This document shows, piece after piece, positions 37,527 through 55,032 of a stretch of DNA of 64,000 nucleotides (within the stretch, counting starts at the first letter, position 1; every line of letters starts with the position of its first letter). Where the stretch lies: contig NZ_CSTE01000004.1 of NCBI RefSeq assembly GCF_001368915.1, positions 124,001 through 188,000 on the forward strand, in the 5' to 3' direction. This DNA comes from Haloferax massiliensis (GTDB lineage Archaea; Halobacteriota; Halobacteria; Halobacteriales; Haloferacaceae). The notes under the pieces are model-generated. The model had not been told where the DNA came from, ran no database searches, and saw only the letters and a list, made by a program, of their open reading frames with translations. The position numbers and the translations under genes are program-made.

Positions 37527-37534
37527 CACACATG

Positions 37535-37549
37535 AATAATTGTTTTGGT
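37535..37549 (-). promoter_or_regulatory. Promoter of the ebo-like TIM-barrel gene
   Basis: ACCAAAACAATTATT (minus strand) begins with a BRE-like ACCAAAA and ends in a TATA-like stretch 24 bases before the ATG. It matches 13 of 15 bases of the element in front of the TatD-family gene at 40299. Confidence 0.55.
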
Positions 37550-37605
37550 ACTGCCAACGTCCGAGACGGAGCGCGATGTCTCCGTCGCCGACGCGCCGGA
37601 CCAGT

Positions 37606-38568
37606 TCACGACACGTCGAACGCCGACGAGAGGCCGACCGCGGGGACGACGAACGCCGCCGCGACGACGCCCCACGCGGGACTCAGCAGTCCGGCGACCG
37701 CTGCGTTCAGCACGACGAGTCCGAGGACGCACGTACCGACCGCGGGGCCGATGGTGCCCGGTCGGGGGTCGGCGTAGGCGGTCAGGAGGTCGCGGCCGGT
37801 CCACGCCGCGAACCAGACGAGGAGTCCGCCGGCCACGGCGAGCGTCGCGGAGTCGGCTGGGTCGACGCCGACCGTCGCGGCGGCCGCGACCACCGACCCG
37901 ACCGCGAGTCCGACGCCGGCTATCCCGACCAGCGCCGCCCGCGAGTCGCCCGCGCCGGTCTCCCGCTCGGCCATGTACGTGACGCCGGCGATGTAGAGCG
38001 CGACGACGACCGGAACGAGGTACACCCACGCCGGGACCGTCAGGGCCGTCGGAGCGGAGGGCGACCCCGCGACGACCGCCATGCCGAGGGCGACGTTCGC
38101 CCCCCGACAGCCACCCATCGCCGCGAAGCCGAGCGGCGTGTCCTTGAGCGCGCCGTCGTAGAGCGCGACGAGCGTACCGAGGGCGGCGGCGACGAGGCCG
38201 GTGGTCGGTCCCCCGGCGGCCGCGGCGACGACGACGCCGGCACAGAGGAGTGCGACGCCGAGATTTCTCGCTCGCGTGCGCGACACGTCCCCCGACGGAA
38301 TCGGTCGCTCCGGGCGGTGCCGGGCGTCCTCGCCGGCGTCGGCGTAGTCGTTGAGCGTCGTACCCGCCGCGTACAGCAGGACCGAGGCGAGCGCGACGCT
38401 GGCGAGCGACGACAGCGGGACCGACGGGCGACCGCCGCTGACCAGTACCGCCCCGAGGATGACGTCGGGCGGCGCGGTGAACAGGTTCGGGGCGCGGACG
38501 AGTCTGGCGAGGCTCGAAAGCGAGCGTCGAAGGTCGCCGGCCGCGGGTGTGGCGTTCGTTCGATTCAT
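37606..38568 (-). CDS. UbiA-family prenyltransferase, EboC-like
   Basis: 320 residues with about nine hydrophobic segments. The motif NDYADAGEDARHRPERPIPS is the first Asp-rich site of UbiA enzymes, which binds the prenyl diphosphate through Mg2+. The N-terminal LVRAPNLFTAPPDVILGAVL is characteristic of the EboC branch. GALKDTPLGFAAMGGCRGAN occupies the region between the two Asp motifs. It lies 45 bases after the second TIM-barrel gene. By analogy with the bacterial ebo cluster it attaches or presents a prenylated intermediate at the membrane. Confidence 0.85.
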   Translation of the reverse strand: MNRTNATPAAGDLRRSLSSLARLVRAPNLFTAPPDVILGAVLVSGGRPSVPLSSLASVALASVLLYAAGTTLNDYADAGEDARHRPERPIPSGDVSRTRARNLGVALLCAGVVVAAAAGGPTTGLVAAALGTLVALYDGALKDTPLGFAAMGGCRGANVALGMAVVAGSPSAPTALTVPAWVYLVPVVVALYIAGVTYMAERETGAGDSRAALVGIAGVGLAVGSVVAAAATVGVDPADSATLAVAGGLLVWFAAWTGRDLLTAYADPRPGTIGPAVGTCVLGLVVLNAAVAGLLSPAWGVVAAAFVVPAVGLSSAFDVS

Positions 38569-38613
38569 CGTCGGTCAGTCGCCCGGACGGGGATTCGTGT
38601 CCGACTCGGGCGG

Positions 38614-39489
38614 TCAGGCCCAGCCATGGGCTTCGAGGTACTCCATCGCGGTCCGGGCCGTCTCCGCCGCGGTCTCTTGGTAGGGGTACAGTTCGACCGT
38701 GACGTAGCCGTCGTAGCCGGTCGCTTCGACCGCGTCGAGGAAGCCGTCGATGTCCATCGCCCCCTCGCCGAGTTGGGTGTGTTCGTGGGTGCGGTCCGCG
38801 GGGATGTCTTCGAGGTGGTAGTGCGGCGTGTAAGGCGCGAGCGTCTCCACCAGTTCGACCGGGTCCTCGCCGACCGAGTAGAAGTGTCCCGCGTCGAAGT
38901 TACAGCCGATACGGGGCGAGTCGACCCGGTCGACGAGGTCGAGGAAGTCCTCGGAGGTCTCGATGAGCAGGTGCGGTTCGGGTTCGACCAGCACGTCGAC
39001 CCCGAGTTTCTCCGCGGCGTCGGCGACCTCGCGGAGGCCCCGGACGAGCGCGTCGAGCGCATCGGCCCGCGACATGCGCTCCGGGACCGGCCCGCCCGGC
39101 GGAACCGAGATGCTCTCCGAGCCGAGCGCGGCCGCGGTTGCGAGCGCGTTCTTCGTGTGCTCGACCCGCGCCTGTCGGTCCTCGGGGTCGAGTTCGACGA
39201 ACGAGGGGTGGTGAAACGCCTCGGTATCGCGGTTGAACGTCGCCGCCCGACTCTCCGCGGAGGGCTCGATGGCGCTGAGCATGAACGCGTTGCAGTTGCT
39301 GACTTCGATACCGCAGTCGTCGAGGAGCGTCCGAGCGCGTTCGAGGTCGTCGCCGTCGGCCGTCCCCGGGAACAGGTGCGGGTCGTCGAGCAGGATTTCG
39401 ACGCCGTCGTAGCCGGCGTCGGCTATCGCCTCGACGCCCTCGGTGAGAGTTCGCTGCCGGAACGCGTTCATCGAGAAGCCGAACTCCAT
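38614..39489 (-). CDS. Xylose-isomerase-like TIM barrel, ebo-cluster copy 2
   Basis: 291 residues, 3 bases after the TatD-type gene and ahead of the UbiA gene, so co-transcribed. It aligns with copy 1 throughout: FSMNAFRQRTLTEGVEAIAD, VLVEPEPHLLIETS, IGCNFDAGHFYSVGEDP, HYHLEDIPADRTHEH, LGEGAMDIDGF and VTVELYPYQ. The metal-binding Glu, Asp, His and Glu positions are kept in both. Two paralogues may act on successive stereocentres or form a heteromer. In bacterial ebo clusters this role belongs to the single EboE TIM barrel. Confidence 0.85.
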   Translation of the reverse strand: MEFGFSMNAFRQRTLTEGVEAIADAGYDGVEILLDDPHLFPGTADGDDLERARTLLDDCGIEVSNCNAFMLSAIEPSAESRAATFNRDTEAFHHPSFVELDPEDRQARVEHTKNALATAAALGSESISVPPGGPVPERMSRADALDALVRGLREVADAAEKLGVDVLVEPEPHLLIETSEDFLDLVDRVDSPRIGCNFDAGHFYSVGEDPVELVETLAPYTPHYHLEDIPADRTHEHTQLGEGAMDIDGFLDAVEATGYDGYVTVELYPYQETAAETARTAMEYLEAHGWA

Positions 39490-39492
39490 CGG

Positions 39493-40299
39493 TCACACCT
39501 CGTAGTGGAAGTTCGGCGACTGGCCGAAGAACTCCCGCGGGTTGTCGTAGACGACCTTTCGGACCTCGTCTCGGTCCCAGCCGCGGTCGAGCATCTTGTC
39601 TCGGGCTTTCGGAACCGCGAGCGGGTCCGAGGGGTCCCAGTCGGCGGCGCTGTTGAGCAACATCTTGTCGGTGCCGTACTCTTCGAGGATGTCGATGGTC
39701 GTCTCGGCGTCTATCTTCCCGGGGTAGAGCGTGAAGCCGAGCCAGCAGTCGGTCTGCAGCGAGATATCGACCGTGTTCTCGGTGTTGTGGTCGATGACGA
39801 TTCGCTCTTCGGTCACGTCTTCCTCCCGAATCATCTCGACGAGTCGCTCGGTCCCCTCGGGCTTCTGGGTGTGCGGGGTGTGGATGATGACCGGCAGTTC
39901 GCGCTCCTCCGCCATCCTGAGTTGGCGTCTGAACGCGTACTCCTCGGCGTCGGTCCCCTGGTCCAGCCCGATTTCGCCGAGGCCGACGACGTGCTCTCGG
40001 TCGAGGTACTCGGGAAGACCGTCCATCACCGCCTCGGCCATCTCGGGGTAGTTCGCCTCCTTGGGTTCGAGGCCGACGGTGACGTAGTGGTCGATGCCCG
40101 CCGCCCGCTCCGCCCGGTCGGTCTCGAACTCGATTATCTGCTCGAAGTAGTCGAAGAACGACGCCGCGTGTCGCTTGTCCGTCCCGCTCCAGAACGCCGG
40201 TTCGACGCAGCATTCCACGCCCGCGAGCCGGGCGCGCTCGTAGTCGCTCGTCGACCGAGAGACCATGTGCATGTGCGGGTCGATAATTGGTATCGACAT
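39493..40299 (-). CDS. TatD-family metal hydrolase, EboB-like
   Basis: 268 residues of the amidohydrolase/TatD fold. Metal-site residues: IDPHMHMVSR, VVGLGEIGLDQG, LPVIIHTPHTQKPEG, RIVIDHNTENT and LNSAADWDPSDPL. The start IIDPHMHMVSRSTSDYE and CCVEPAFWSGTDKRHAASFF match the EboB branch as I know it, rather than housekeeping TatD nucleases. It is the first gene of the minus-strand operon EboB-TIM barrel-EboC. Probable role: hydrolysis of a small-molecule intermediate. Confidence 0.88.
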   Translation of the reverse strand: MSIPIIDPHMHMVSRSTSDYERARLAGVECCVEPAFWSGTDKRHAASFFDYFEQIIEFETDRAERAAGIDHYVTVGLEPKEANYPEMAEAVMDGLPEYLDREHVVGLGEIGLDQGTDAEEYAFRRQLRMAEERELPVIIHTPHTQKPEGTERLVEMIREEDVTEERIVIDHNTENTVDISLQTDCWLGFTLYPGKIDAETTIDILEEYGTDKMLLNSAADWDPSDPLAVPKARDKMLDRGWDRDEVRKVVYDNPREFFGQSPNFHYEV

Positions 40300-40324
40300 G
40301 TGACCTACCTCTCTGATGGTAGTT

Positions 40325-40339
40325 AATCATTGTTTCGGT
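40325..40339 (-). promoter_or_regulatory. Promoter of the EboB-like operon
   Basis: ACCGAAACAATGATT (minus strand) ends 26 bases before the ATG at 40299. It nearly repeats the element at 37535-37549, suggesting that the two transcripts are co-regulated. Confidence 0.55.
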
Positions 40340-40444
40340 GGGTTCGATGACGACGCCGGAGTGGGGGACGAAACGCCCGACCGAGGCGACCCCGCACGCC
40401 GGCGGAGACAGCTATTTACTCGTCCGCGCCGACGCCGTAGTCGC

Positions 40445-40654
40445 ATGCCGGAACACTGTCCGTTCTGCGGCGAGCCGATAGAATCGAACCGCGTCACCCC
40501 CGAGGACGGCCGTCCCTACGAGGAGTGGCGCTGCGTCGACTGCGACGAGACGTGGCGACACCCCGAGGAGACGGTCCTCGACCGGAACCTCGACTTCAGC
40601 AAGCACGGCGACCAACTCGACAGGCGGGACGCCGACACCTCCCTCGACTGGTGA
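40445..40654 (+). CDS. Small zinc-ribbon protein
   Basis: 69 residues from ATG 40445. Two Cys pairs (EHCPFCGEPIE and WRCVDCDETW) form a rubredoxin-like zinc knuckle, followed by an acidic tail. Small haloarchaeal proteins of this sort are common and mostly uncharacterised. It lies 80 bases ahead of the inositol-phosphate synthase gene in the same direction, so it may be part of the ebo-like region, although an AT-rich promoter-like stretch lies in between. GC-rich context and good codon use support it as real. Confidence 0.75.
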   Translation: MPEHCPFCGEPIESNRVTPEDGRPYEEWRCVDCDETWRHPEETVLDRNLDFSKHGDQLDRRDADTSLDW

Positions 40655-40733
40655 GCGGTCGCCCCCGGCATCGGCGCGGAAACAACATGATTGACGGACA
40701 AGGTTATGTATCGCCCACCGCAATCGTGAGTCG

Positions 40734-41930
40734 ATGACAGTCGGAGTGTGGATTATCGGAGCCAGAGGTAACGTCGCGAGCGTCTCGATGACCGGCGCGC
40801 GCGCAATCGCACGCGGAGTCGCGGACACGACCGGAATGGTGACGGCCCGCGAACCGGTGGCCGCGCTGGACCTTCCCGCCGTCGACGACCTCGTGTTCGG
40901 GGGCCACGACATCCGGTCCCAGCGCATCGAGGAGACCGCCGAGGAGATGGCGGGTCACGGCGGCGTCGTGGCACCCGACACCCTCGACGCGGTCCGCGAG
41001 GACCTGCGCGAAATCGACGAGCGGGTCGAACTCGGGACCGCCCGGCGGTGCGGCGAGGCGGTCGAGGGGATGTCCTCGGAGACGGCGAGCGCCGACGTGG
41101 CCGTCGCCGACATCGTCGAGGAGATACGGGCCGACTACGCCGCCTTCGCCGACTCGCAGGACGTCGACCGGCTGGTCGTCGTGAACGCCGCGTCGACCGA
41201 GCCGCCGATTCCGACGCCCGGCGACTACGAGACAGTGGAGGCGTTCGAGACGGCGGTCGAGCGCGACGACCCGAACCTCCCCGCGAGCGCCCTGTACGCC
41301 TACGCGGCGCTCCTCGACGGCCACCCGTACGTCAACTTCACGCCCAGTACCGGGTCCTCGCTCGGCGGCCTGCGCGAACTCGCGGAGCGAAACGGCGTCC
41401 CGCACATGGGCCGCGACGGGAAGACCGGCGAGACGCTGATGAAGTCCGCGCTCGGACCGATGTTCGCGGGGCGGAACCTGCGCGTCCTCTCGTGGGAGGG
41501 CCACAACATCCTCGGCAACAGCGACGGACTCGTCCTCGAAGACGACGCCAACAAGGCGGGGAAGATAGAGAGCAAGGGGGGCCTGCTGGACGATATTCTC
41601 GGCTACGAGACCCACAACGCCGTCCGCATCGACTACACGCCGTCGCTCGGCGACTGGAAGACCGCGTGGGACCACGTCCACTTCGAGGGCTTCCTCGGGA
41701 CGGAGATGAAGATGCAGTTCACGTGGGAGGGAGCCGACTCGGCGCTCGCCGCGCCGCTCGTTCTCGACTTGGTCCGGTTGGCCGCCTTCGCCGACGAGCG
41801 CGGCGAGGGCGGGACGATGCCGCACCTCGCGTCCTTCTTCAAGTCGCCCGAGGGCGTCGACAGCCACGAACTGTCCGAGCAGTTCCGACTCCTCTACGAC
41901 TACGCGGAGCGCCACGCGGAGGGACTGTGA
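40734..41930 (+). CDS. ino1: Inositol-3-phosphate synthase
   Basis: 398 residues, full length for the archaeal enzyme. NAD-binding motif VWIIGARGNVASVSM at the N-terminus; catalytic-domain motifs PYVNFTPSTGSSLGG, MGRDGKTGETLMKSALGPMF, GHNILGNSDGLVL, RIDYTPSLGDWKTAWDHVHF and FLGTEMKMQF. It converts glucose-6-phosphate to inositol-3-phosphate, the first step to inositol. GGTTATGTAT about 25 bases upstream is the likely promoter, and the next gene overlaps its stop. In this cluster it takes the place of EboD, the dehydroquinate-synthase-like sugar-phosphate cyclase of bacteria. Confidence 0.92.
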   Translation: MTVGVWIIGARGNVASVSMTGARAIARGVADTTGMVTAREPVAALDLPAVDDLVFGGHDIRSQRIEETAEEMAGHGGVVAPDTLDAVREDLREIDERVELGTARRCGEAVEGMSSETASADVAVADIVEEIRADYAAFADSQDVDRLVVVNAASTEPPIPTPGDYETVEAFETAVERDDPNLPASALYAYAALLDGHPYVNFTPSTGSSLGGLRELAERNGVPHMGRDGKTGETLMKSALGPMFAGRNLRVLSWEGHNILGNSDGLVLEDDANKAGKIESKGGLLDDILGYETHNAVRIDYTPSLGDWKTAWDHVHFEGFLGTEMKMQFTWEGADSALAAPLVLDLVRLAAFADERGEGGTMPHLASFFKSPEGVDSHELSEQFRLLYDYAERHAEGL

Positions 41931-43327
41931 CGACTCACAGTCCCTCGAACGCGAGTGCGCCCGGTGCCGGTCGCGTCGTCGTCCTCGATATCGTCGGACT
42001 CCAGCAGGAACACCTCGACGAGGGGCTGGCACCGAACGTCGCCGACCTGCTCGCCGGAAAGCCGTCCGGGGCGCTCGAACCCTCGTTTCCGAGCGTCACC
42101 GTCCCCGCGCAGACCACGCTCTCGACCGGGCGGTCGCCCGCGGCCCACGGCGACGTGTCCAGCGGCGAGTTCGACCGCGAGCGCCAGGTCGCCGAGTTCT
42201 GGGAGCGCGACCGGGGGACGCGAACCCGACTGTGGGAGGCCGCGAGCGACGAGGCCGGACTCACGACCGGCGCGCTGTTCTTCCAACACCTCATCGGGAC
42301 GAGCGCCGACGTGGCCGTCACGCCGTCGCCCATCGAGGACGAGGACAACACCCTCGTCGAGATGGACTGCTGGACGAACCCCGACGGCTTCTACGACGGC
42401 CTCCGCGAGGAGTACGGCCACTTCCCGCTGCACAACTACTGGGGGCCGGTCGCCGACGAGCGGAGCAGCGAGTGGATTCTCGCGGCCGCGCGGGAGTCGA
42501 TAGCGCGGTCCGACCCGGACCTGCTGTGGGTGTACGTGCCGCACCTCGACTACGACGCCCAGCGGCACGGCCCCGACTCGCCTGAACTCCGGGAGGCGGT
42601 GGGCGTCGTCGACGACCTCGTCGGCGAGTTCCTCAACTGGCTCGAAGCGACGTCCCGCTGGTCCGAGACGGCGGTCGGCGTCGTCAACGAGTACGGCATC
42701 AACGCGGTCGACACCCCGGTATTTCCGAACCGAGCGCTCCGCGAGGCGGGCCTGCTCTCCGTGCGCGACGACGGCGATGGCGGCGAGGAGGTCGATATCG
42801 CCGCGTCGTCGGCGTTCGCCATGGTCGACCACCAAATCGCGCACGTGTACACCGACCGGCCGGCGGCCGCCCGAGAGGTGCTCGAAGCGCTCCCCGGCGT
42901 CGACGCGGTGCTCGAAGGCGAGGCGCGGGGCGACGCGGACCACCCGAACGCCGGCGACCTCGTCGTCGTCTCGGACGCGGACGCGTGGTTCCAGTACTAC
43001 TGGTGGACCGATGACGCCGACGCGCCGTCGTACGCGACGGAGATGGACATCCACGCCAAGCCCGGCTTCGACCCGTGCGAACTGTTCCTCGGCGACGAGG
43101 GACTCGTGACGCTCGACCCGACGAAAGTGTCCGGGTCGCACGGTCGCGTCGACCCAGACACGCACGGCTTCTACGGCTTCGGCGGGCCGGCGGCGCCCGA
43201 CGGCTCATCCGGTGGCGTCGTCGATGCCCGGCGGTTCGCCCCGACGGTCGCTGACCTCCTCGGCATCGCGGACGACGTGTCGCTCGGGTTCGAGCGCCCG
43301 TCGCTGTTCGCCGGGCCGCGAGCGTAG
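41927..43327 (+). CDS. Type I phosphodiesterase / alkaline-phosphatase-fold protein, EboF-like
   Basis: 466 residues starting with GTG 41927, inside the ino1 stop (GTGA overlap). Alkaline-phosphatase superfamily motifs: the nucleophile Thr region SFPSVTVPAQTTLSTGRSPA, then YVPHLDYDAQRHGPDS, AFAMVDHQIAHVYT and KVSGSHGRVDP for the metal ligands. The usual S-D-H-G site reads VVNEYGINAVDTP, a variant I associate with the EboF branch. No signal peptide is seen. Translational coupling to ino1 means that the two act on one pathway, probably hydrolysing a phosphodiester of an inositol-type intermediate. Confidence 0.85.
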   Translation: MTTHSPSNASAPGAGRVVVLDIVGLQQEHLDEGLAPNVADLLAGKPSGALEPSFPSVTVPAQTTLSTGRSPAAHGDVSSGEFDRERQVAEFWERDRGTRTRLWEAASDEAGLTTGALFFQHLIGTSADVAVTPSPIEDEDNTLVEMDCWTNPDGFYDGLREEYGHFPLHNYWGPVADERSSEWILAAARESIARSDPDLLWVYVPHLDYDAQRHGPDSPELREAVGVVDDLVGEFLNWLEATSRWSETAVGVVNEYGINAVDTPVFPNRALREAGLLSVRDDGDGGEEVDIAASSAFAMVDHQIAHVYTDRPAAAREVLEALPGVDAVLEGEARGDADHPNAGDLVVVSDADAWFQYYWWTDDADAPSYATEMDIHAKPGFDPCELFLGDEGLVTLDPTKVSGSHGRVDPDTHGFYGFGGPAAPDGSSGGVVDARRFAPTVADLLGIADDVSLGFERPSLFAGPRA

Positions 43328-43444: not shown

Positions 43445-46400
43445 TCAGTTACTCGAACTCGCGATTTCGATGGTGCCGCGCATCCGGAAGCTGTGGGCGC
43501 GACAGACGTACTCCGCCATCGAGTCGGTGACGGTGAACGTGACGCTCTGTGACTCGCCCTGCGTCGCGAGGTACGACGTGGAGATGTCGTTGACGACGGA
43601 GTCGTCGCCGTTGACGACCTCGAAGTTGTGGGGCGCGCCGTTTCGGTTCGTCCACGTGACCGTGTACTCGCCGCCGGCTTCGAGGGTGAGCGTCGGGTTC
43701 GTCGCGTCCGCGATACCGGACGGCGCGACGCCGGTCCAACCCTCGTTGCTCTCGGCTTCGAGTTCGATGGTCGACCCGGACGGGATGACATCGCTGCCGC
43801 CGTCGTCGCTACCGCCGTCGTCGCTGCCATCGCCGCCGGTCGCATCGACGTGTTCGGTGACGCGGTCGTAGACGAGTTCCAGCCCGTTGCCGGAGCCGCC
43901 GATGCGCGTCAGTTCGGTGTCGTCGAACCACGCGGTGCCGGTGGCGTTGCCCCAGCCGCCGAACAGCAGGTTGAACTGGAACTCGCCGGGCGACGCGCCG
44001 GTCGAGAACGTCGTTTCGAGCAGTTGCCAGTCGTCGACGGGGTCGGTGTAGTAGTCGGTGACAGAGCCCTGTCCGAGCGAGTGGACGTTGATGGTGACGC
44101 CGTAGGAGCTTCCGATTTCGCCGAAGCCGTCCTCGGAGTTGCTGAAGTCGTCCGAGGTCCTGACCCACGCCCGGAAGCGGTACTCGGAGTTCGGTTCGAG
44201 GTCGTCGCGGTACTGCGACCACGACGCGTCCGCGCCCTCCGTGGAGTCGACGCGAACGCTGTAATCACCCGTCCGCGCCACGTCCGAGGTGTAGGTGAAC
44301 TCGGCCGTGCCGCCGTAGGTGATTCCCTCCCAGTTCGCCGGCCCCTCGGGGTCCGACGACGAGTCGGTGTCCGCGGCCTCTTCGAACGAGGCGTTCGGCA
44401 GGAGGTTGTTCCCGTCGGGGTCGGTCAGCGAGACGTTGTCGAACCACGCCGTCCCCGTCGCGTTGCCGAAGCCGCCGAACAGACAGTTAATCTGGACCGT
44501 CGAGGTGTCGGCACCCGTCGTGAACGTGGTGCTCACCTCGGTCCAGTCGTTCGTTCCGGTCAGCGGGTCGGTCTCGAAGTCAGTGCTGTGGACGTTGAAC
44601 AGCGCGCCGCGGGCCGAGTCGCTCGCCTGCACGTTCTCGGTTCGAATCCAGCCGCTGAGGGTGTACTCCGTCTCGGGCTGGACCGAGATGCCGTCGGCGA
44701 GCCAGACCGCGTCCGCGCCCTCGGTGGACGAGATTTGGACGCTCTGACTGCCGTCTTGGCCCGCGTCCGCGTAGGTGTACTCGGCGGTCCCCGCGAACGT
44801 GTTCGTCGTCCAGTCGGCGGGCATCGAGGATTCGCTCCCGCCGGTGCTCTCTTCGAACGAGCCGTTCGAGAGCACGTCGGTTCCGTCCGGGTCGGTCAAC
44901 GAGACGCCGTCGAACCACGCCGTGCCGGTCGCCTCGCCGTAGCCGCCGAACAGGCAGTTAATCTGGAGCTCTTCGAGGTCGCCGCTGTTGACGGTGGTGC
45001 TCACCTCCGTCCAGTCGTTGGTGCCGGTCAGTCCGGACGGAATCGTGTCCCACTGCGTGCCCGAGTCCGCGTTCGCTATCTGCTCGACGCTGATGGTCGC
45101 GCCGAGCGGCCCCTCGCCGATTGCGGTGCCGTCAACGAGTTGGACGTTGTCGGTCTTGACGTAGGCGGAGAGCGTGTACTCGGTGTTCGGGTCGACCGCG
45201 ACCGTCGCGTTCCACGACGCGTCCGCGCCCTCGGTGGACGAGACTTGGACGCTCCGGTCGCCCTCGTAGCCGGTCTCGGCGTACGAAAACTCGGGCGAGC
45301 CGGAGTAGCCCGTGTTCGACCAGCCGACGGGCATCGCGTCGGAGTCGCCGGTGTCGCCGCCGACGGGCGTCTCGAACGAGGGGTTCTCGATGAGGTTCGG
45401 GAGGTCGTCGCCGGTGTCGCCGCCGTCGCTCGTGTCCTCGTTGGCCTCGTACGCTGGGATGAAGCCGTCGGCGTGGGTCGCGCCGGCGAGCGACGCCGCG
45501 TCCACGAGGACCGTGTCCCGGTAGTTCGACTCGTCGCTAATCATCTGGTAGACCGCCTCGCCGGAGGCGTCGTCGGCCGGCGTCTGCGCGAGCGCGACGA
45601 GCGCCCACATGGCGACCCGACCGTCCTCGTCGTTGAGGAGGTCGTTGTCGAGAATCGCCCCCCGCGTGTCCGTCGTCGAGGGGAGGACGCGGAGTGCGGT
45701 GAGTCTGACGCCCGGCGAGGAGTGCGTCAGCGCGCCGAGCGCGGCCTGAATCGCGGTGCTGTTCCCGGTGTCGGCGTCGAGCGCGCCGAGGCCGTGCATC
45801 GTCCACAGCGCGTGAATCGCCGCCGGGTCGAGGCCGACCTCGTCGAGCGTCTCCGTCGTGACGAGGTCGACGAGCGAGGAGAGCGCGCCCGTCTCGTTCC
45901 GTTCGACCAACAGCCGCTGGGCCGTCCGCCGCCAGAACATGTTCGAACTCGACAGCGCCTCGACGAGTTCAGAGACGCTCGCGTCCGCGAGGTCGGTCGG
46001 CTCGTAGCCGTCGTCGTCGCCGTAGACGACGCGGAAGAGCCGGGCGGTCGCGTGGTCGCGTACCTCGGACATGTACGCGTTCCCGGGGCCGTTGTCGAAG
46101 CCGTCGGGTGTCGGGTTGTGCTGGTAGATGTAGTTGTACCAGTCGATGAACCACAGCATACCGTCCGGACCGACCGAGGAGTACGACGGCGCGAACCACG
46201 CGTCTGTCGCGCCCGCGATGTTGTGGGCGTAGTGGTTGGTGTACCCCGCGCCGTCCTGCGAGAGGAAGAACGTCCCGAGGAGGTGTCCCGTTCCGCCGCC
46301 GACGAAGCCGGTGTTGTTCCAGTACTTCTCGGGATATTCACGCGCCGTGTAGATGGTGTGGCCGGTCGCCGCGGTGTACCCGCCGTGGAGGTCGACCTGC

Positions 46401-48661
46401 CGGACGCGGTCCGTGACCGGGAGGAACCGATTCGAGTCGGAGGCCGCGCCGAAGTCGTTCGGTCCGGTCCCCTCGATGAGGTCGTAGTGCTGATGCGGGA
46501 TGGCGAAGTAGTTGCTCGGTCGGCCAGAGGTCGCGGCCGAGCCGAACGCGAGGCCCTCCTCGGTGAAGCCGAGGCCGGCCTGGTTCCCCGGGAGCGCCCC
46601 GACGATTTCGAAGTCGGTGACCGAGCCGTCCTCTAACTTGAATCGGTAGACCGAGGAGCTGAAGTTTCGCTCCTCGCCGGCGATGGTGCCGCTGAAGCCG
46701 CCGTACCCGACCTGTCCCCAAATCCAGTTGTCGATGCCGTGGACCAGTTCGTTGGGACCGGCGTGGGTGTCGCCGTTACCGTACCCGGAGAACAGGACGG
46801 TTCGCTCGTCGGCCTGTCCGTCGCCGTCCGTGTCGGCGAGGTGGACCAACTTCCCGCTCTCGCTCGGGTCATCGAGGTCGGTGACGACGACGCCGTCGTC
46901 GACGACCACCATGCTCGGGGGAATCGAGAGCCCGTCCGCGAAGACGGTGAACTCGTCGGCCTGCCCGTCGCCGTCGGTGTCCTCGCAGACGACGATTTTG
47001 TCGCGGTTCTGCCCCAGTTCGTTGGGGTAGTCGCGGGTGACCGACAGCCAGACGCGACCCTGTTCGTCGAACTTCGCGTCGAGGATGTTCCCCTTCGCGT
47101 CGTCCGGCAGGTCGGCCTCGGTGACGAACGGTTTGAGGTCGAAGCCCTCCGGCGTAATCGTCCGCCGGACCGTCTCGCTGGGATTCAGCGCCCGCTGCAT
47201 CTTGTTCCAACTCGTCCCGCTGCCGACCTCCTCGGGGACCTCCGGCGTCAGGAGGCTCCCCTCCGGCGGCGGATAGTACGGGATGTCGGCGTCGATGAAC
47301 TCCAGGTCGTTGAGGACCTTGGTGTCGTCGGCGATGGTGTCTTCGTTCTTCGTGACCCAGCGAATCGCGTTCTCGATGAGCGCCTTGAAGCCGTCGGTGG
47401 CCCACGGCGCTCTGCCGTGGCCCCACGCGGTGTAGAAGACGCGACCGTCGCCCTGCGTTCGGGTCCACGACCACGGCTCGCCCTGTTCGCGGCCCTCGTC
47501 GTACTCGGGGATGCTGTCCCCGTCGGGGAACTGCCCGTAGGCGAGGACGTTGATGTCGTCGTTGAGGTTCGTGTGGCGGTACGTCTCGTCTTCGACCGTG
47601 ATGGGGTCGAGGTTCGACAGAATCGGATGACTCGGCTGGGCGAAGCTCGTCGTCATCTCGTTGTAGTTGTGGTCGGCGAACTGACCGCCGACGAGGTTCA
47701 TGTAGGCGTCCGAGCCGGTGAAACAGGCCGAGGCGCTGTGAATCGGGATGAAGCCGCCGCCGTTCTCGACGAACTCGACGATGGACTGCTCCTGTTCCGC
47801 GGTCAGCTCTTGGCCGTAGTTCGCGCCGCGGTTGTCCATCATGACCCACGCGTCGTAGCGGTGGAGCACGTCGGGTTCGAGGTCGGCGAGGCGGTCGGTG
47901 TACTGGACCTCGATGCCGCGGTTCAGCATGTACTCGGTGAGCTGGACCTGCCGGGCGGGGCCGTTGTGGCTGCCGCCCTGCGGACCGCCCATCATGAGGA
48001 CGCTGATGTTGTCCTCGGCCGGCGGCGGCGTTATCTCGACGCTCCCCCGCATCTGCTCGGGGTGTTCCTCGGCGTAGTACATCGCCATCGACGACTCGGC
48101 GGTAAAGGTGACCGTCTGCGAGTCGCCGGACCCCTCCATCGTGGAAAAGGACTGCATCTCCTCCCCGGTCGGGTCCGCGAGGACGAACGTGATGGCCTCG
48201 TCCATGACGTTCGAGAGCTCTATCTCGTACTCCTCGCCCTCGTGCATGACGAGCGTCGGGTTGACGGTGTCTTCCATCTCGTCGGGCGCCGTCGCGACCC
48301 ACGAGAACGAGTCCGCCGAGGTCTCGACCTCCGTCCCGTTGCGCCAACTGTTGATTCCCTTCAACAGGGAGTTCGTCGTCAGGTCGCCCTGACGCCAGTC
48401 GGATATGGCGTCGGCGAGGCCGGACCCCTCGATGACCGACTCCTCGTTCGTGTACGCCGCGAGGACGTCACCCTCCGTCGCGACGAGGCGAATCGTGTCG
48501 TCGGTGGTGAGCTGTTTCGCCTGCGCGACGCCGCTGGCCCCGAGGAAGTTCGCCGCCCCGGCGCCGCTCACTTTCATGAAGTCGCGCCTGTTGATGTTCA
48601 GTCGCTCGCTGTCGCCGTCGCCGGCGTTCGCTTCCCGTGTCGTGTCGTCGTCGTGTGTCAT
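43445..48661 (-). CDS. Giant exported ThuA / PVC-type dehydrogenase protein with two cupredoxin domains
   Basis: 1738 residues. Order: Tat signal (NINRRDFMKVSG), dockerin-like module (66-113), cupredoxin-like domain 1 (about 118-212), ThuA glutamine-amidotransferase-like domain (about 218-440; SVLMMGGPQGG, VFYTAWGHG), PVC-type propeller dehydrogenase domain (about 500-880; DGDGQADEFTVFADGLSIPP), HEAT-like helical repeats (about 890-1080), and three carbohydrate-binding-like repeats beginning ENPSFETP, LSNGSFEE and LPNASFEE. An Asp/Gly/Ser linker and cupredoxin domain 2 (about 1625-1735) complete it. Domain 2 keeps type-1 copper ligands His1678, Cys1720, His1723 and Met1727. The role is inferred: oxidation of extracellular sugars with a built-in copper electron acceptor. 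Confidence 0.88.
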   Translation of the reverse strand: MTHDDDTTREANAGDGDSERLNINRRDFMKVSGAGAANFLGASGVAQAKQLTTDDTIRLVATEGDVLAAYTNEESVIEGSGLADAISDWRQGDLTTNSLLKGINSWRNGTEVETSADSFSWVATAPDEMEDTVNPTLVMHEGEEYEIELSNVMDEAITFVLADPTGEEMQSFSTMEGSGDSQTVTFTAESSMAMYYAEEHPEQMRGSVEITPPPAEDNISVLMMGGPQGGSHNGPARQVQLTEYMLNRGIEVQYTDRLADLEPDVLHRYDAWVMMDNRGANYGQELTAEQEQSIVEFVENGGGFIPIHSASACFTGSDAYMNLVGGQFADHNYNEMTTSFAQPSHPILSNLDPITVEDETYRHTNLNDDINVLAYGQFPDGDSIPEYDEGREQGEPWSWTRTQGDGRVFYTAWGHGRAPWATDGFKALIENAIRWVTKNEDTIADDTKVLNDLEFIDADIPYYPPPEGSLLTPEVPEEVGSGTSWNKMQRALNPSETVRRTITPEGFDLKPFVTEADLPDDAKGNILDAKFDEQGRVWLSVTRDYPNELGQNRDKIVVCEDTDGDGQADEFTVFADGLSIPPSMVVVDDGVVVTDLDDPSESGKLVHLADTDGDGQADERTVLFSGYGNGDTHAGPNELVHGIDNWIWGQVGYGGFSGTIAGEERNFSSSVYRFKLEDGSVTDFEIVGALPGNQAGLGFTEEGLAFGSAATSGRPSNYFAIPHQHYDLIEGTGPNDFGAASDSNRFLPVTDRVRQVDLHGGYTAATGHTIYTAREYPEKYWNNTGFVGGGTGHLLGTFFLSQDGAGYTNHYAHNIAGATDAWFAPSYSSVGPDGMLWFIDWYNYIYQHNPTPDGFDNGPGNAYMSEVRDHATARLFRVVYGDDDGYEPTDLADASVSELVEALSSSNMFWRRTAQRLLVERNETGALSSLVDLVTTETLDEVGLDPAAIHALWTMHGLGALDADTGNSTAIQAALGALTHSSPGVRLTALRVLPSTTDTRGAILDNDLLNDEDGRVAMWALVALAQTPADDASGEAVYQMISDESNYRDTVLVDAASLAGATHADGFIPAYEANEDTSDGGDTGDDLPNLIENPSFETPVGGDTGDSDAMPVGWSNTGYSGSPEFSYAETGYEGDRSVQVSSTEGADASWNATVAVDPNTEYTLSAYVKTDNVQLVDGTAIGEGPLGATISVEQIANADSGTQWDTIPSGLTGTNDWTEVSTTVNSGDLEELQINCLFGGYGEATGTAWFDGVSLTDPDGTDVLSNGSFEESTGGSESSMPADWTTNTFAGTAEYTYADAGQDGSQSVQISSTEGADAVWLADGISVQPETEYTLSGWIRTENVQASDSARGALFNVHSTDFETDPLTGTNDWTEVSTTFTTGADTSTVQINCLFGGFGNATGTAWFDNVSLTDPDGNNLLPNASFEEAADTDSSSDPEGPANWEGITYGGTAEFTYTSDVARTGDYSVRVDSTEGADASWSQYRDDLEPNSEYRFRAWVRTSDDFSNSEDGFGEIGSSYGVTINVHSLGQGSVTDYYTDPVDDWQLLETTFSTGASPGEFQFNLLFGGWGNATGTAWFDDTELTRIGGSGNGLELVYDRVTEHVDATGGDGSDDGGSDDGGSDVIPSGSTIELEAESNEGWTGVAPSGIADATNPTLTLEAGGEYTVTWTNRNGAPHNFEVVNGDDSVVNDISTSYLATQGESQSVTFTVTDSMAEYVCRAHSFRMRGTIEIASSSN

Positions 48662-49109: not shown

Positions 49110-50321
49110 ATGAGCGTCGTCATCGTCGGCACGCTCGACACCAAGGGCGAGGAAATCGGGTTCGCCCGCGACGTGCTCGAAGGGAAGGGGCTCGAAGTCC
49201 ACCTCGTCGACGTCGGCGTGATGGGAGACCCCGAAATCGAACCGGACACCGACGCCGCGGCCGTGGCCGAGGCGGGCGGGAGCACGCTCGAAGCGCTTCG
49301 GGAGGCCGGGGACCGCGGCAAGGCTATCGAAATCATGGGCGACGGCGCGGCAGTCGTCGCGTCTCGACTCCACGACGAGGGCCGACTCGACGGTATCCTC
49401 GGGCTGGGCGGCGGGGGGAACACCTCGGTCGCGACGGCCGCGATGCGCGCGCTCCCGATGGGCGTCCCCAAACTGATGCTGTCGACGATGGCGTCGGGCG
49501 ACACGGAACCCTACGTCGGCTACCACGACATCGCGATGATGTACTCCGTCGCCGACATCGAGGGGCTCAATCAGCTCTCGCGGACCGTTATCTCCAACGC
49601 GGCGCTCGCGATGGTCGGCATGGTGTCGAACGAACCGGACGCCGAGACCGAGGAGAAGCCGACCATCGGAATCACGATGTTCGGCGTCACGACGCCGTGC
49701 GTTCAGACGGCGCGCGACTGGCTCGAAGCGCGCGGCTACGAGACCATCGTCTTCCACGCGACCGGGACCGGCGGCCGAGCGATGGAGTCGCTCATCGAGG
49801 AGGGCGTCATCGACGGCGTGCTCGACGTCACGACGACCGAGTGGGCCGACGAACTGGTCGGCGGCGTCCTCGCGGCGGGCCCCGACCGACTCGACGCCGC
49901 GGCCGAGCGCGGCATCCCGCAGGTGGTCTCGACCGGCGCGCTCGACATGGTCAACTTCGGGCCGAGAGACTCCGTCTCCGACGAGTTCGACGGCCGGCAG
50001 TTCCACGTCCACAACCCGCAGGTGACGCTGATGCGGACGACGCCCGAGGAGAACGCCGAACTCGGCCGCATCATCGCGGAGAAGCTCAACGCCGCGACCG
50101 GCCCCACCGCGCTCGCGCTCCCGCTCGGCGGCGTCTCGATGCTCGACGCGGAGGGCGAGGATTTCTACGACCCCGAGGCCGACGACGCGCTGTTCGGCGC
50201 GCTTCGCGAACATCTCGACGACCACGTGGAGGTCATCGAATCGCCGGCGAACATCAACGACGACGAGTTCGCGCGAACGCTCGCGAAGGCCATCGACAGC
50301 CGGATGCGAGCCTCGGCGTAA
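49110..50321 (+). CDS. Tm-1-like ATP-binding domain protein (UPF0261)
   Basis: 403 residues, the normal length. VVIVGTLDTKGEEIGFARDV is the family signature at the N-terminus. GILGLGGGGNTSVATAAMRA, GVPKLMLSTMASGDTEPYVG and GITMFGVTTPCVQTARDWLE follow. These belong to the two-domain fold of the tomato Tm-1 N-terminal region. Bacterial and archaeal members usually travel with a PEP-hydrolase-like TIM barrel, which is present here at 57330-58163. The biochemical reaction is not established; the context is catabolic, with an importer directly downstream. Confidence 0.88.
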   Translation: MSVVIVGTLDTKGEEIGFARDVLEGKGLEVHLVDVGVMGDPEIEPDTDAAAVAEAGGSTLEALREAGDRGKAIEIMGDGAAVVASRLHDEGRLDGILGLGGGGNTSVATAAMRALPMGVPKLMLSTMASGDTEPYVGYHDIAMMYSVADIEGLNQLSRTVISNAALAMVGMVSNEPDAETEEKPTIGITMFGVTTPCVQTARDWLEARGYETIVFHATGTGGRAMESLIEEGVIDGVLDVTTTEWADELVGGVLAAGPDRLDAAAERGIPQVVSTGALDMVNFGPRDSVSDEFDGRQFHVHNPQVTLMRTTPEENAELGRIIAEKLNAATGPTALALPLGGVSMLDAEGEDFYDPEADDALFGALREHLDDHVEVIESPANINDDEFARTLAKAIDSRMRASA

Positions 50322-50498: not shown

Positions 50499-51914
50499 AT
50501 GACTGATCAACCAGCGCTAACTGACGAATCCAGGCGACGCTATCTGAAAGCAATCGGGACGGCCGGACTCACGGCCGGACTCGCGGGCTGTTCCGGTGGG
50601 GGTGGTTCCGAAGGCGAGAACAACAGCGGCGGCGGGGGCGACGACTCCTCTGGCGGGGACACGTCCGGCGGCGACAGCGGCGAGGAGTACGAGGCCATCG
50701 GGAACTTCCCGCCCGAGGGGAACTCCGTGAGCATCGGATTCAACGGGCCGACCTCCGGCGCGTTGGGTCCCGACGGCCAAGACCAGGAGAAGGGCTTCGA
50801 CCTCGCGGTGAAGCACCTGAACGAGGGCGGCGGCCTCGTCGACTACTGGGACCGTCTGAGCGGCGACGGCATCATGGGCTATCAGGTCGAGCCGACGAAG
50901 GCCGACACCGCCGGGAGCGCCGACACGGCACAGGACAACATCGACCGGATGATTCAGCGGGACAACATCCAGTTCTGGACGGGCGGCATGTCCAGTACGG
51001 TGACGATGGCGATGCAGAACGTCGCCCAGCGGGAGAAGGTCCCGTTCATGGGCGGCAACTCCACGTCCGCCGGCATCTCCGGCGAGAACTGCTCGCGGTA
51101 CTACTTCCACCCGACGTTCCACGCGGAGATTATCGGGATGGCGATGGGCGAGGCCGCACCCTCGGTCCTCGGCGAGGACCGCTCGCTGTTCCACATCTAC
51201 ATGGACTACTCCTACGGGCAGTCGAACCGCGACGCCGCCCGGAAATACCTCACCGAACAGGGGCCGTGGGAGGACGCCGGCGGTGCCGCCATCGCGGAGG
51301 GTGAGACCGACCACAGCTCCCAGATTCAGGCGCTCGAAGACTCCGGGGCCGACACGCTGTACTTCTCCAGCTTCGGTAACTTCGCCGCCAGCGGCCTCGC
51401 GCAGTTGCGAGACGCCGGCCTGACCGACGACATCGAGGTCATCATCCCGCACGTCAGCGCGTTCACCCTCGACCCGCTCGGCGCGGACGCCGAAGGCGTC
51501 CTCGGCATGGAGCCGTGGAACCCGAACGCCGACAACGAACCGAGTCAGGTGTTCGTCGAGTCCTACCAGGAGGAGTACGGCGAGACGCCCAACCAGAGTT
51601 CGCTGCACACCTACGAGTCGATGATGGTGTACGCGGCCGCCGTCGAGGACGCGGGGACCTTCCACCCGCCGACCGTGGTCCGAACGCTCGAAGAGTTCGA
51701 GTGGAGCCTCGCGTGGGGCGACTCCGCGTTCCGGACGTGCGACCACCAGGTCGAACGGCCGTGGTACATGGTGCAGGGCGTCGGCGACGACCGCGCCGAG
51801 GAACTCGGCATCCGGACGGAAATCGTCGAGACGACCGACCCGCTCGTCTACGAGTGCAGCGAGTTCCCGGCGTCCAACTGCGCCATGGGCGACAACGAGT
51901 ACGGAGACGAGTGA
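50499..51914 (+). CDS. Branched-chain-type ABC substrate-binding lipoprotein
   Basis: 471 residues. N-terminal SRRRYLKAIGTAGL and a lipobox ending LAGCSG show a Tat lipoprotein; a Gly/Ser/Asp linker follows. The body is a LivK/UrtA-like type I periplasmic binding fold: IGFNGPTSGALGPDGQDQEK, QDNIDRMIQRDNIQFWTGG, YMDYSYGQSNRDAARKYL. It catches a small organic acid, amino acid or amide outside the cell. TTTAACTATA about 40 bases upstream is a likely promoter. It begins the importer operon. Confidence 0.9.
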   Translation: MTDQPALTDESRRRYLKAIGTAGLTAGLAGCSGGGGSEGENNSGGGGDDSSGGDTSGGDSGEEYEAIGNFPPEGNSVSIGFNGPTSGALGPDGQDQEKGFDLAVKHLNEGGGLVDYWDRLSGDGIMGYQVEPTKADTAGSADTAQDNIDRMIQRDNIQFWTGGMSSTVTMAMQNVAQREKVPFMGGNSTSAGISGENCSRYYFHPTFHAEIIGMAMGEAAPSVLGEDRSLFHIYMDYSYGQSNRDAARKYLTEQGPWEDAGGAAIAEGETDHSSQIQALEDSGADTLYFSSFGNFAASGLAQLRDAGLTDDIEVIIPHVSAFTLDPLGADAEGVLGMEPWNPNADNEPSQVFVESYQEEYGETPNQSSLHTYESMMVYAAAVEDAGTFHPPTVVRTLEEFEWSLAWGDSAFRTCDHQVERPWYMVQGVGDDRAEELGIRTEIVETTDPLVYECSEFPASNCAMGDNEYGDE

Positions 51915-52193
51915 CGACCTGACCGCGCCTCGATACGACGTACCAACTCCCTTTTCGGCAGTCGGGACTCCCTACGCGGTCACCCCACCCGCGTTCGACT
52001 GCTCGAACGCCGCTTTTTCTCGGTCGCACGGGCCTCGCGTCGACGCCCGGAGACGACCGCCGCCGCCGCATCCGGAGAGCGGGCCGCTGGCGTGTCAGAA
52101 GCCAGCGAAGCACAAGATTAACATACTGAAGAATGCATGAATAATCGTGCACACCATGAAGTGGTTACTCACATCTGTACCGAGGTGGAAGCG

Positions 52194-53135
52194 ATGAACA
52201 TCGACGGGGTCGTCGGATTCCTCTTTATCGCACTGAGCGTCGCGTCGCTGTATCTGCTCGTCGCGGTCGGGCTTTCCATCGTGTTCGGGTCGCTCAAATA
52301 CGTGAATATGGCCCACGGCGTCCTCTACTTGAGCGGCGCGTACATCGGGCTTCTCATCGCGTCGAGCGAGCAGTACGGGGGGCTCTTGAGCGGGTTCGGG
52401 CAGGTCGGACTCGATTGGGGGTTCGTCCCCGCGCTCGTGTTGACGCCGGTGGTCATCTTCGTCGTCGGCGTCGCCATGGAACGTTGGATTGCGAAACCGT
52501 TCTACGAACGAGAACTCCTCGACCAACTCCTCGTCACATTCGGAATCCTCATCGCCGCCCAGGAGCTGGTCGCCATCCTCTTCGGCCGGACGGGAACCAT
52601 CTACCCGCGTCCGGAGTGGCTCACGGGCGCGATATCCCTCCCCGTCGTCGGCACGCCGCCGGGGATGAGCGCGGCCTCGACGATACGCGTCCTCGTCGTC
52701 GCGCTCACGCTCCTGCTCGTCGCCGGCATCTTCGCGTTCTTCAAATACACCGACTACGGGCTGGCCGTTCGGGCGGGGACCGAAGACTCCGAGATGACGC
52801 AGATGCTCGGTATCCGTATCGGGCGACCGTTCCTGTTGATATTCGCCGTCGGGGCCGCGTACGCGGGGCTCGCGGGCGTCCTCGGTGGGTCGCTTTTCAA
52901 CGTGACCTCCGAGATCGGCATGGAGATAATCATCCCGTCGCTGGTCATCGTCATCATGGGCGGCGTCGGCAGTCTGCGCGGGACCGTCGTCGGCGCGCTC
53001 CTCGCCGGGCTCACCTTCGCGGTGGCGACGGAGCTCGAACCGAGCATGACGCAGGCAAGCATCTACCTGCTGGCCATCGTGGTGCTGACGATTAGACCGA
53101 GCGGCATCTTCCCCTCGGCGGAGGTCGGACAATGA
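52194..53135 (+). CDS. Branched-chain-type ABC permease, LivH-like
   Basis: 313 residues from ATG 52194; an upstream in-frame ATG at 52137 would add unrelated polar sequence. Typical LivH features: GLSIVFGSLKYVNMAHGVLY near the start and GLAVRAGTEDSEMTQMLGI as the cytoplasmic coupling loop. Last come MEIIIPSLVIVIMGGVGSLR and GTVVGALLAG. About eight membrane helices. The LivM-like gene overlaps it by 4 bases (ATGA). Confidence 0.92.
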   Translation: MNIDGVVGFLFIALSVASLYLLVAVGLSIVFGSLKYVNMAHGVLYLSGAYIGLLIASSEQYGGLLSGFGQVGLDWGFVPALVLTPVVIFVVGVAMERWIAKPFYERELLDQLLVTFGILIAAQELVAILFGRTGTIYPRPEWLTGAISLPVVGTPPGMSAASTIRVLVVALTLLLVAGIFAFFKYTDYGLAVRAGTEDSEMTQMLGIRIGRPFLLIFAVGAAYAGLAGVLGGSLFNVTSEIGMEIIIPSLVIVIMGGVGSLRGTVVGALLAGLTFAVATELEPSMTQASIYLLAIVVLTIRPSGIFPSAEVGQ

Positions 53136-54274
53136 GCACGGACAACATCCACAAGACCGTAGACGAAGAATCGCCGTTGATCAGCTGGGACACCTGGGAC
53201 GGTATCAAACACACCGAGTCGTTCGTCCTCCTGTCGTCGGTGCTGTTCGTCCTGTTGTTCTCGTACGCGTTCGGCCGCGCACCGGTCGTCTCGGACATCT
53301 TCCAGGGATATCACGGGCTGGCGATTACCATCCTCATCTGGTCGATATTCGCGCTCGGGTTCAACCTCCTGTTGGGCCAGACCGGTCTCCTCTCGTTCGG
53401 TCACGCCATGTTCTTCGGGACCGCGAGCTACGCCGCGGCGCTGTTCGCGATTCACGTGTACAACGACCCGCTCGTGGTCATCGTCGTCGGGACGCTGGCG
53501 GCGGTCGCCCTCGGTGCGGTCGCGGCGCTGATTCTCCTGCGCCTCCACACGGTGTACTTCTCCATCGTGGCGCTGGCCATCGGGCAGTTCCTCTACTTCC
53601 TCGCCCGAGAGCCGCTCGTGGAGATCACGAAGGGGATAAACGGCCTCGAAGTGCCGCGCTCGCCCGTCCTCGGGCTCTTCGAACTGGAACACCAGTACGG
53701 CGGACTCCTCGGCGAACTCGTCGTGAACAACCTCTATCTCTTCGTCGGCGTCTTCTTCGTCGCCGTCGTCGCCTCTATCACGCGCATCCGCAAGTCCCCC
53801 TACGGACTCATCTTCAAGGCGATTCGCGAGAACGAGACGCGGACGGCGTTCGTCGGTCTCGACGTCTGGCGCTACAAGTTCGCGGCGTTCCTCCTGTCGG
53901 CGTCCATCGTCGGCCTCGCCGGCGGGCTGATGGCCGTCAACACCCAGTTCGCTGGCGTCGAGCGACTCTACTGGTCCGTCAGCGGCGACGTCGTCGTGAT
54001 GACCGTCCTCGGCGGTCTCGGCACGCTCGCCGGGCCGGTCATCGGAACGTTCGTGTTCTTCTACTTCAAGGGCATCGTCAACGGCTTCCCGACGCTCGGC
54101 AACTACTGGCTCCTCCTGCTGTCGCTTTCGTTCACGACGGTCGTGTGGGTCTACCGCGACGGCATCTGGGGGATGACGACCGCCCTCACCGGCGCGCTCC
54201 GCGAACCCAGAGAACTGCTGGACACCGTCACCGGCCGCGACTCGACCGGCGACTCCTCGGGGGGTGAGAACTGA
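53132..54274 (+). CDS. Branched-chain-type ABC permease, LivM-like
   Basis: 380 residues, membrane protein of the LivM class: FALGFNLLLGQTGLLSFGHA, KSPYGLIFKAIRENETRTAF and GLGTLAGPVIGTFVFFYFKG are the family signatures. It has an N-terminal cytoplasmic extension of about 35 residues and a polar C-terminal tail. It pairs with the LivH-like subunit to form the channel. Its stop overlaps the next start by one base (TGATG). Confidence 0.92.
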   Translation: MSTDNIHKTVDEESPLISWDTWDGIKHTESFVLLSSVLFVLLFSYAFGRAPVVSDIFQGYHGLAITILIWSIFALGFNLLLGQTGLLSFGHAMFFGTASYAAALFAIHVYNDPLVVIVVGTLAAVALGAVAALILLRLHTVYFSIVALAIGQFLYFLAREPLVEITKGINGLEVPRSPVLGLFELEHQYGGLLGELVVNNLYLFVGVFFVAVVASITRIRKSPYGLIFKAIRENETRTAFVGLDVWRYKFAAFLLSASIVGLAGGLMAVNTQFAGVERLYWSVSGDVVVMTVLGGLGTLAGPVIGTFVFFYFKGIVNGFPTLGNYWLLLLSLSFTTVVWVYRDGIWGMTTALTGALREPRELLDTVTGRDSTGDSSGGEN

Positions 54275-55032
54275 TGGCGCTCCTCGAAACCCACGGACTC
54301 ACCAAGGAGTTCGGCGGGCTCACGGCGCTCGACGGCGTCGACATCGAAGTCGAAGAGGGCGAACTCGTCTCCCTCATCGGCCCCAACGGCGCCGGCAAGT
54401 CCACGCTCATCAACACGATAACCGGTCGGCTGCGTCCGACCGAGGGCGAGGTGTTCTACGCCGGGAACGAACTCGTCGGCATGAAGCCGTTCGAAATCGC
54501 ACAGCTCGGCGTCGGTCGGTCGTTCCAGACCGCGTCGATTCTCCCCGAACTCACGGTGCGGGAGAACGTGCAGGTCGCGTCGTTCGCGGCCGAACACGGC
54601 TCGTTCCGGGTCAATTTCTTCCGCCGACGGGACTCGTTCGACGAGGTCCAAACGCGGACGAACGACATCCTGGAGACCATCGGCCTCGACTCGAAGGCCC
54701 GGATGGAAGCCGGCTCGCTCCCGTACGGCGACAAGCGGCGCTTAGAGGTCGCCATCGGACTCGCCACCGACCCGGACCTCCTGTTCATGGACGAGCCGAC
54801 CGCCGGCATGTCGCCGACGGAGACCGAGATAACGGTCGACCTCATCCACGACCTGCTTGCCGACTGGGGGATGACCATCTTCCTCGTCGAACACGACATG
54901 GACATCGTCTTCGACGTCTCCGACCGCATCTTCACGCTCCATCAGGGTCGGCTCATCGCGCGGGGGACCCCCGAGGAGATTCGGGAGAATCCGGCCGTCC
55001 GCGAGGCCTACCTCGGAGGTGAGGAGCAATGA
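54274..55032 (+). CDS. Branched-chain-type ABC ATPase, LivG-like
   Basis: 252 residues. Walker A GPNGAGKSTLINTITG, a LivG-type signature region LPYGDKRRLEVAIGLA in place of LSGGQ, Walker B LLFMDEPTAGMSPTE, and switch FLVEHDMDIVFDVSDRIF. The C-terminal ENPAVREAYLGG is a LivG hallmark. One of two ATPases powering the importer; it overlaps the LivF-like gene by 4 bases. Confidence 0.93.
   Translation: MALLETHGLTKEFGGLTALDGVDIEVEEGELVSLIGPNGAGKSTLINTITGRLRPTEGEVFYAGNELVGMKPFEIAQLGVGRSFQTASILPELTVRENVQVASFAAEHGSFRVNFFRRRDSFDEVQTRTNDILETIGLDSKARMEAGSLPYGDKRRLEVAIGLATDPDLLFMDEPTAGMSPTETEITVDLIHDLLADWGMTIFLVEHDMDIVFDVSDRIFTLHQGRLIARGTPEEIRENPAVREAYLGGEEQ

Follow-up and report, generated by a model that had tools for sequence, protein, structure and literature searches.

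A copper-for-heme haloarchaeal variant of the planctomycete ThuA-DUF7133-HEAT architecture lies near a laccase that shares its N-terminal module

The window analysed here is a stretch of 64,000 nucleotides from Haloferax massiliensis, in which an open reading frame at 43445..48661 on the reverse strand, with an ATG start and no internal stop, encodes a fusion protein of 1738 aa. We found that the chain carries, in order, a Tat signal (aa 22-37, NINRRDFMK; 48551..48598; Pfam TAT_signal E 0.002, just under the cut-off), a 46-aa dockerin-like module recognised by its likeness to the C-terminus of a laccase in the window (about aa 67-113; 48323..48460), an N-terminal cupredoxin-like domain lacking copper ligands (48029..48310; Pfam Copper-bind), a ThuA domain (aa 221-436; 47354..48001; Pfam E 6e-38), a DUF7133/TIGR02604 propeller (aa 494-880; 46022..47182; Pfam DUF7133 E 1e-82, 278.9 bits), HEAT repeats (aa about 896-1074; 45440..45976; Pfam HEAT_2, and helical in the predicted model), three CBM_4_9 carbohydrate-binding repeats (aa about 1087-1590; 43892..45403; Pfam E 2e-20, in three stretches) and a C-terminal cupredoxin with type-1 copper ligands (43457..43786; amicyanin match and Copper-bind), all on the reverse strand. 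Copper-bind is matched twice in the fusion (E 6.5e-11), the two arginines of the Tat signal are invariant in eight haloarchaeal homologues, and the CBM stretch, in a model of modest confidence, gave Foldseek matches to single CBM16, CBM22 and CBM4 domains. Pfam and NCBIfam agree with an earlier note on this DNA that ThuA, a PVC-type dehydrogenase, HEAT repeats, carbohydrate-binding repeats and cupredoxins lie on one chain.

Judging from domain content and locus numbers, the product is probably the orthologue of Haloferax volcanii HVO_B0215, which CAZy places in CBM16 and which has been named both as a CBM16 protein and as a homologue of the protein Lac161_ORF7 (PMC5342196); our literature search found no functional study of HVO_B0215. 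Orthologues of the fusion that are 92-94% identical occur in three further Haloferax genomes, and a locus of Haloferax prahovense (L059) shows 94% identity. In G007, one of these three genomes (L049 8940), and in L062 the gene seems to be split, and we regard the split as an assembly artefact because the fragment opens with MCIRDS, a signature of residual Nextera adaptor; a real split was rejected in favour of adaptor residue left in the assembly.

The NCBIfam model TIGR02604, 'PVC-type heme-binding CxxCH protein', matches the fusion with 126.9 bits against a cut-off of 122.2 and would label it by that name, despite the absence of CxxCH throughout its 1738 aa. On copper-type members this name is likely a misannotation. 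The His-Cys-His-Met type-1 copper set known from plastocyanin, amicyanin and halocyanin is complete in the C-terminal cupredoxin only, where the ligands H1678, C1720, H1723 and M1727 are invariant in eight haloarchaeal proteins. The corresponding positions of the N-terminal cupredoxin, mostly His and Cys in related proteins, are I157 and A197, and the domain was rejected as a second copper centre, its ligands having been lost.

Upon examining other genomes, we observed DUF7133 in 14 of the 392 haloarchaeal genomes of the order, representing 9 of 95 genera, and seven homologues from other haloarchaeal genera share the core and place a cupredoxin behind the CBM repeats. Scanning 84,980 species genomes gave at least 566 relatives; the best 80 of these at least 566, a best-match sample rather than a census, were analysed and include 73 bacterial loci, almost all from Planctomycetota and Verrucomicrobiota, which span the 866-aa ThuA-DUF7133-HEAT core at about 39-46% identity. 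DUF7133 itself occurs in 55 of the 149 Planctomycetota sampled, and several genomes reach 14 matches. The idea that the fusion architecture is unique was rejected, as ThuA-DUF7133-HEAT forms a single chain both in other haloarchaeal genera and in Planctomycetota and Verrucomicrobiota; the earlier note had also supposed that elsewhere the parts commonly occur singly or in partial fusions, a view that finds no support in the tens of PVC bacteria in which this core is one polypeptide. Of the note's further phrase, that the architecture might be already widespread and characterised, the first half holds and the second does not, one relative having been assayed, a heme-type homologue without ThuA (PMC5342196). 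DUF7133/TIGR02604 proteins are abundant in planctomycetes and the family is biochemically almost uncharacterised; for planctomycete-specific cytochrome proteins, no role is known beyond likely carbohydrate use (PMC5615132). In a quick, unrooted tree, the haloarchaeal sequences form one side of a branch with an SH-aLRT of 100.

We next compared what occupies the end of the chain, with heme and copper assigned throughout by motif and profile rather than by spectroscopy. Among the 73 bacterial homologues drawn from the best 80 of at least 566 relatives, a motif search found a C-terminal CxxCH in 65, an azurin-type cupredoxin fills the slot in three (L071, L077 and L091, from Phycisphaera and Verrucomicrobiota; Pfam Copper-bind in L071 and L077, the two scanned), four are truncated at a contig end or have a disrupted frame, and L089 ends after the HEAT repeats, with a Copper-bind gene beginning 48 bp downstream. 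Cytochrome c was matched by Pfam in two examples, one of them L063, which reads ThuA-DUF7133-HEAT-CBM_4_9-cytochrome c, and in K. vulgare a c-type cytochrome gene precedes a DUF7133-HEAT gene. The PVC proteins of the ThuA-TIGR02604(DUF7133)-HEAT-cytochrome c type have the domain order of the fusion, in L063 with CBM_4_9 as well, but heme c (CxxCH) where the fusion has copper. All six complete haloarchaeal copies in the best-80 set have a cupredoxin at the C-terminal end and no CxxCH. Halocyanin generally takes the place of cytochrome c in haloarchaea (PMC8305020). L071, L077 and L091 resemble the fusion in joining ThuA, DUF7133, HEAT and a cupredoxin in a single chain, but they have an azurin-like C-x4-H site, whereas the haloarchaeal loop is C-x2-H, they lack the front formed by module and cupredoxin, and the tree places them with the bacteria. 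These sequence comparisons indicate that copper arose at least twice in the slot, and that at least two exchanges between heme and copper took place, with different copper loops. The earlier note's description of a Tat-exported haloarchaeal chain that combines a dehydrogenase-type propeller with a copper domain at its end was borne out, the copper standing in the slot of bacterial heme c; as judged by sequence, the fusion has a known PVC architecture in which copper replaces heme, and its function is a predicted one.

The strongest evidence on function is this slot, which almost always holds a one-electron carrier and in which heme and copper have been repeatedly swapped, so that the DUF7133 propeller family can be argued to consist of redox enzymes with a built-in electron exit, a conclusion that the pattern supports. 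It also weighs against the reading in which the protein is a redox-neutral glycoside-cleaving enzyme, as reported for Lac161_ORF7, and the carrier domain has some other role: we consider this quite unlikely, given a carrier that is almost never missing and whose type has changed at least twice, although the CBMs of the fusion would suit it. Strain BL21(DE3), in which Lac161_ORF7 was made, has a functional LacZ of its own, and for this reason we give limited weight to the lactose assay. The assay is the sole one we found on a relative, none being reported for ThuA-bearing family members: Lac161_ORF7, which shares TIGR02604-HEAT with the fusion, ends in a cytochrome c and by its published description lacks ThuA and CBM, was purified from BL21(DE3) and reported as a lactose-hydrolysing enzyme that released glucose from lactose with a Km of 1.8 mM, near that of LacZ, and a kcat of 13.2 s-1 (PMC5342196). 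Glucose release would also be expected from oxidative deglycosylation.

Other haloarchaeal relatives point in the same direction through the shuffling of their modules. We observed the orders cupredoxin-ThuA-GSDH-malectin (L041), ThuA-3-keto-disaccharide hydrolase-GSDH (L042), GSDH-3-keto-disaccharide hydrolase (L052) and 3-keto-disaccharide hydrolase-DUF7133-HEAT-malectin-cupredoxin (L040), the last being a fusion of 1766 aa (4221-9518 of that locus) in which the hydrolase lies in two stretches. The 3-keto-disaccharide hydrolase family has been tied to the cleavage of 3-ketotrehalose and 3-ketolactose (PMC9007349), and its pairing with these haloarchaeal proteins makes oxidative cleavage of glycosides by DUF7133 fusions a reasonable proposal by analogy, one that would also fit the release of glucose from lactose by Lac161_ORF7.

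The predicted structure agrees with a dehydrogenase-type propeller of the six-bladed PQQ-dehydrogenase fold. An AlphaFold2 model of aa 215-1080 built with 46 homologues reached a pLDDT of 89.7 and a pTM of 0.91, and the best PDB matches of the propeller were PQQ sugar dehydrogenases (3a9g Z 27.5, 2ism 26.7, 3das 25.0), with 296 residues of 3a9g aligned to model residues 290-669 at an rmsd of 3.2. Lactonase-type propellers scored about Z 22, three to five Z units lower than the PQQ sugar dehydrogenases, as did other propellers, and the AA12 structures 6h7t (Z 23.7) and 6jt5 (Z 22.5) were close to the other propellers. The ThuA part matched the ThuA-like structure 1t0b (Z 22.3, rmsd 2.4, 203 residues). 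At the profile level, hhalign of the family against GSDH (PF07995), represented by 30 haloarchaeal GSDH sequences, gave a probability of 95.6% and a pairwise E of 1.2e-8 over 296 columns.

Conserved residues were then compared across 46 archaeal and PVC sequences. The family keeps a strongly conserved polar set of its own, with D631-T632-H633, N693, D820 and D840 of the propeller and H232, H308, H331, E359, H363 and H415 of ThuA invariant in 46 of 46 sequences, and with about 40 invariant polar or aromatic residues in the propeller and 14 in ThuA. H633 of the invariant D-T-H aligns with the catalytic His of GSDH (HxGsR stretch) and is conserved in 46 of 46. In the sequence-profile alignment, as distinct from the structure, the Arg of GHRNPQG is replaced by N/G at 692 and the PQQ arginines of the WRIR stretch align with x-A-P (823-825), part of W-x-A-P at aa 822-825. 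Of the dehydrogenase active site that the earlier note had looked to structure prediction to reveal, the predicted propeller keeps the fold and the catalytic His and lacks the arginines that anchor PQQ.

This leaves a classical PQQ-dependent aldose dehydrogenase, using scavenged PQQ and Ca2+ as in soluble glucose dehydrogenase and copper as acceptor, as an unlikely explanation. It draws on the PQQ sugar dehydrogenases, AA12 enzymes included, among the top structural matches, on the conserved catalytic His and nearby Asn (N693), and on the precedent of the Coprinopsis pyranose dehydrogenase CcPDH, which combines a heme b domain, a PQQ domain and a CBM (PMC4332668). That AA12 enzyme works as is proposed for the fusion, as a secreted propeller sugar dehydrogenase with a built-in electron-transfer domain and a CBM, and its structure 6jt5 is matched by the model at Z 22.5, but it binds PQQ, its heme b domain is N-terminal, and it has neither ThuA nor HEAT. 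Against the explanation stand the loss of the Arg pair that anchors PQQ and of the counterpart of the GHRNPQG Arg, as well as the scarcity of PqqC: PqqC (TIGR02111) was not found in 19 holder genomes, in a run that was silent in the controls too, TIGR02111 matched in 5 of 149 Planctomycetota, below the model's cut-off, and no PqqC was found in 54 of the 55 DUF7133-bearing Planctomycetota of that sample, some of them with at least 10 DUF7133 genes. Because the anchoring arginines are absent and PqqC is scarce, a standard PQQ site in the propeller appears unlikely from sequence.

A laccase-type multicopper oxidase (MCO) with all copper motifs lies in the same window at 32417..34165 on the reverse strand, and from its domain content and locus numbers it is probably the orthologue of LccA, the Haloferax volcanii laccase, given as HVO_B0205 and described as a secreted multicopper oxidase in PMC6985049; it is an enzyme separate from the fusion, and the locus numbers HVO_B0205 and HVO_B0215 are ten apart. 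Over 46 aa, the C-terminal module of the MCO (32426-32560) and the front module of the fusion share 57% identity, with an alignment score of 142 against a maximum of 45 in 500 shuffles. No protein other than these two clearly carries the module in any of four Haloferax genomes, nor in G255, where the two themselves score weakly (E 0.001 and 0.05); G006 has one additional weak match (E 0.26). In G399 a dockerin-like tail of the EF-hand type stands in its place at the end of both fusion and MCO, and both G263 proteins lack a module. An MCO lies at most 15 kb from the fusion in Haloferax, G255, G263 and G399, four of the seven haloarchaeal lineages, and in G255 it is about 250 bp downstream on the same strand; given roughly one such MCO per genome, a simple model of random positions puts the chance of this at 1.6e-7, the 15-kb limit having been picked after the data were seen. 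A cohesin (PF00963) that could partner the dockerin-like module was looked for in the genome and gave no match, with a control matching elsewhere. This sharing of module and neighbourhood suggests a link between fusion and laccase that is new here and can be tested.

The same observations, with the cupredoxin at the fusion's end, could be read as a surface protein that binds copper and delivers it to the laccase, propeller and ThuA being non-catalytic scaffolds. We hold this to be very unlikely, since it would not account for the invariant polar and aromatic residues of both domains across the 46 sequences, nor for heme rather than copper in most bacterial relatives.

We lean slightly towards the fusion being a secreted carbohydrate-binding oxidoreductase in which sugar oxidation would lead to a copper exit, and possibly on to the laccase and O2. 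The CBM_4_9 repeats would anchor the chain on a glycan, and the DUF7133 propeller would use its sugar-dehydrogenase fold to oxidise a sugar or glycoside by means of a cofactor probably bound otherwise than in classical PQQ enzymes; ThuA may act on that sugar or on its oxidised form, and electrons would leave through the C-terminal type-1 copper domain in its role as stand-in for bacterial heme c. In Haloferax the likely next carrier would be the neighbouring secreted laccase, brought close by the shared dockerin-like module and passing electrons to O2, with halocyanins as alternative acceptors. The earlier note's 'self-contained' machine is probably wrong, given the missing PQQ arginines, the failure to find PqqC in holder genomes and the adjoining laccase with its private module. 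A bolder version, possible though doubtful, is a tethered extracellular respiratory chain, in which glycan oxidation would feed the fusion copper and then LccA through paired dockerin-like modules, with O2 reduced outside the cell; if true, LccA would be a terminal oxidase for sugar oxidation and not a phenol oxidase. Since the copper version occurs in Haloferax, beside an already studied laccase, what the whole family does can be tested in a model organism that is genetically tractable.

Between laccase and fusion lies an ebo-like cluster recognised by profile matches (36660..43327), which holds TIM barrels, a UbiA protein of the UbiA/EboC type (37606-38568), TatD (39493-40299), an INO1 family protein (40734-41930) and a type I phosphodiesterase (41930-43327); this block recurs behind the MCO in the distant haloarchaeon G263 (L193). 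At its edge, a 409-aa ORF (36328-37557) has no Pfam match, and in the matching region of L047 another frame resembles the neighbouring TIM-barrel gene (38%); from sequence, the real gene is probably the 289-aa ORF at 36660-37529. Next to the laccase is a PGF-CTERM surface protein with repeats (34328..36331, reverse strand; profile matches), whose counterpart in G255 (L046 12724-13143) starts with a stretch resembling the CBM repeats of the fusion (39%).

Beyond the fusion, a divergent UPF0261 gene of the Tm-1 N-terminal type (49110..50321, forward strand; Pfam) is found near the fusion in six haloarchaeal lineages, and a PEP_hydrolase-like TIM barrel of the Tm-1 C-terminal type (57330..58163, reverse strand) lies near it in the six other haloarchaeal lineages examined as well. 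The two correspond to the halves of plant Tm-1 and accompany the fusion in most haloarchaeal lineages; our literature search found no catabolic role for UPF0261 or PEP-hydrolase-like proteins. Between them, on the forward strand, are a Liv-type ABC importer with a binding protein, two permeases and two ATPases (50499..55772), near the fusion in four lineages, and a beta-propeller protein with PQQ_2 repeats (56009..57268), which stands beside the fusion in G255 and G296 too. Elsewhere in the window, we observed a Tat-exported GH2 beta-galactosidase (1615 aa; 19817-24664) in which an inserted LamG domain precedes the small-chain domain, and a 1195-aa protein of the D-lactate/glycolate dehydrogenase type that fuses FAD-linked oxidase, 4Fe-4S and CCG domains (28019-31606).
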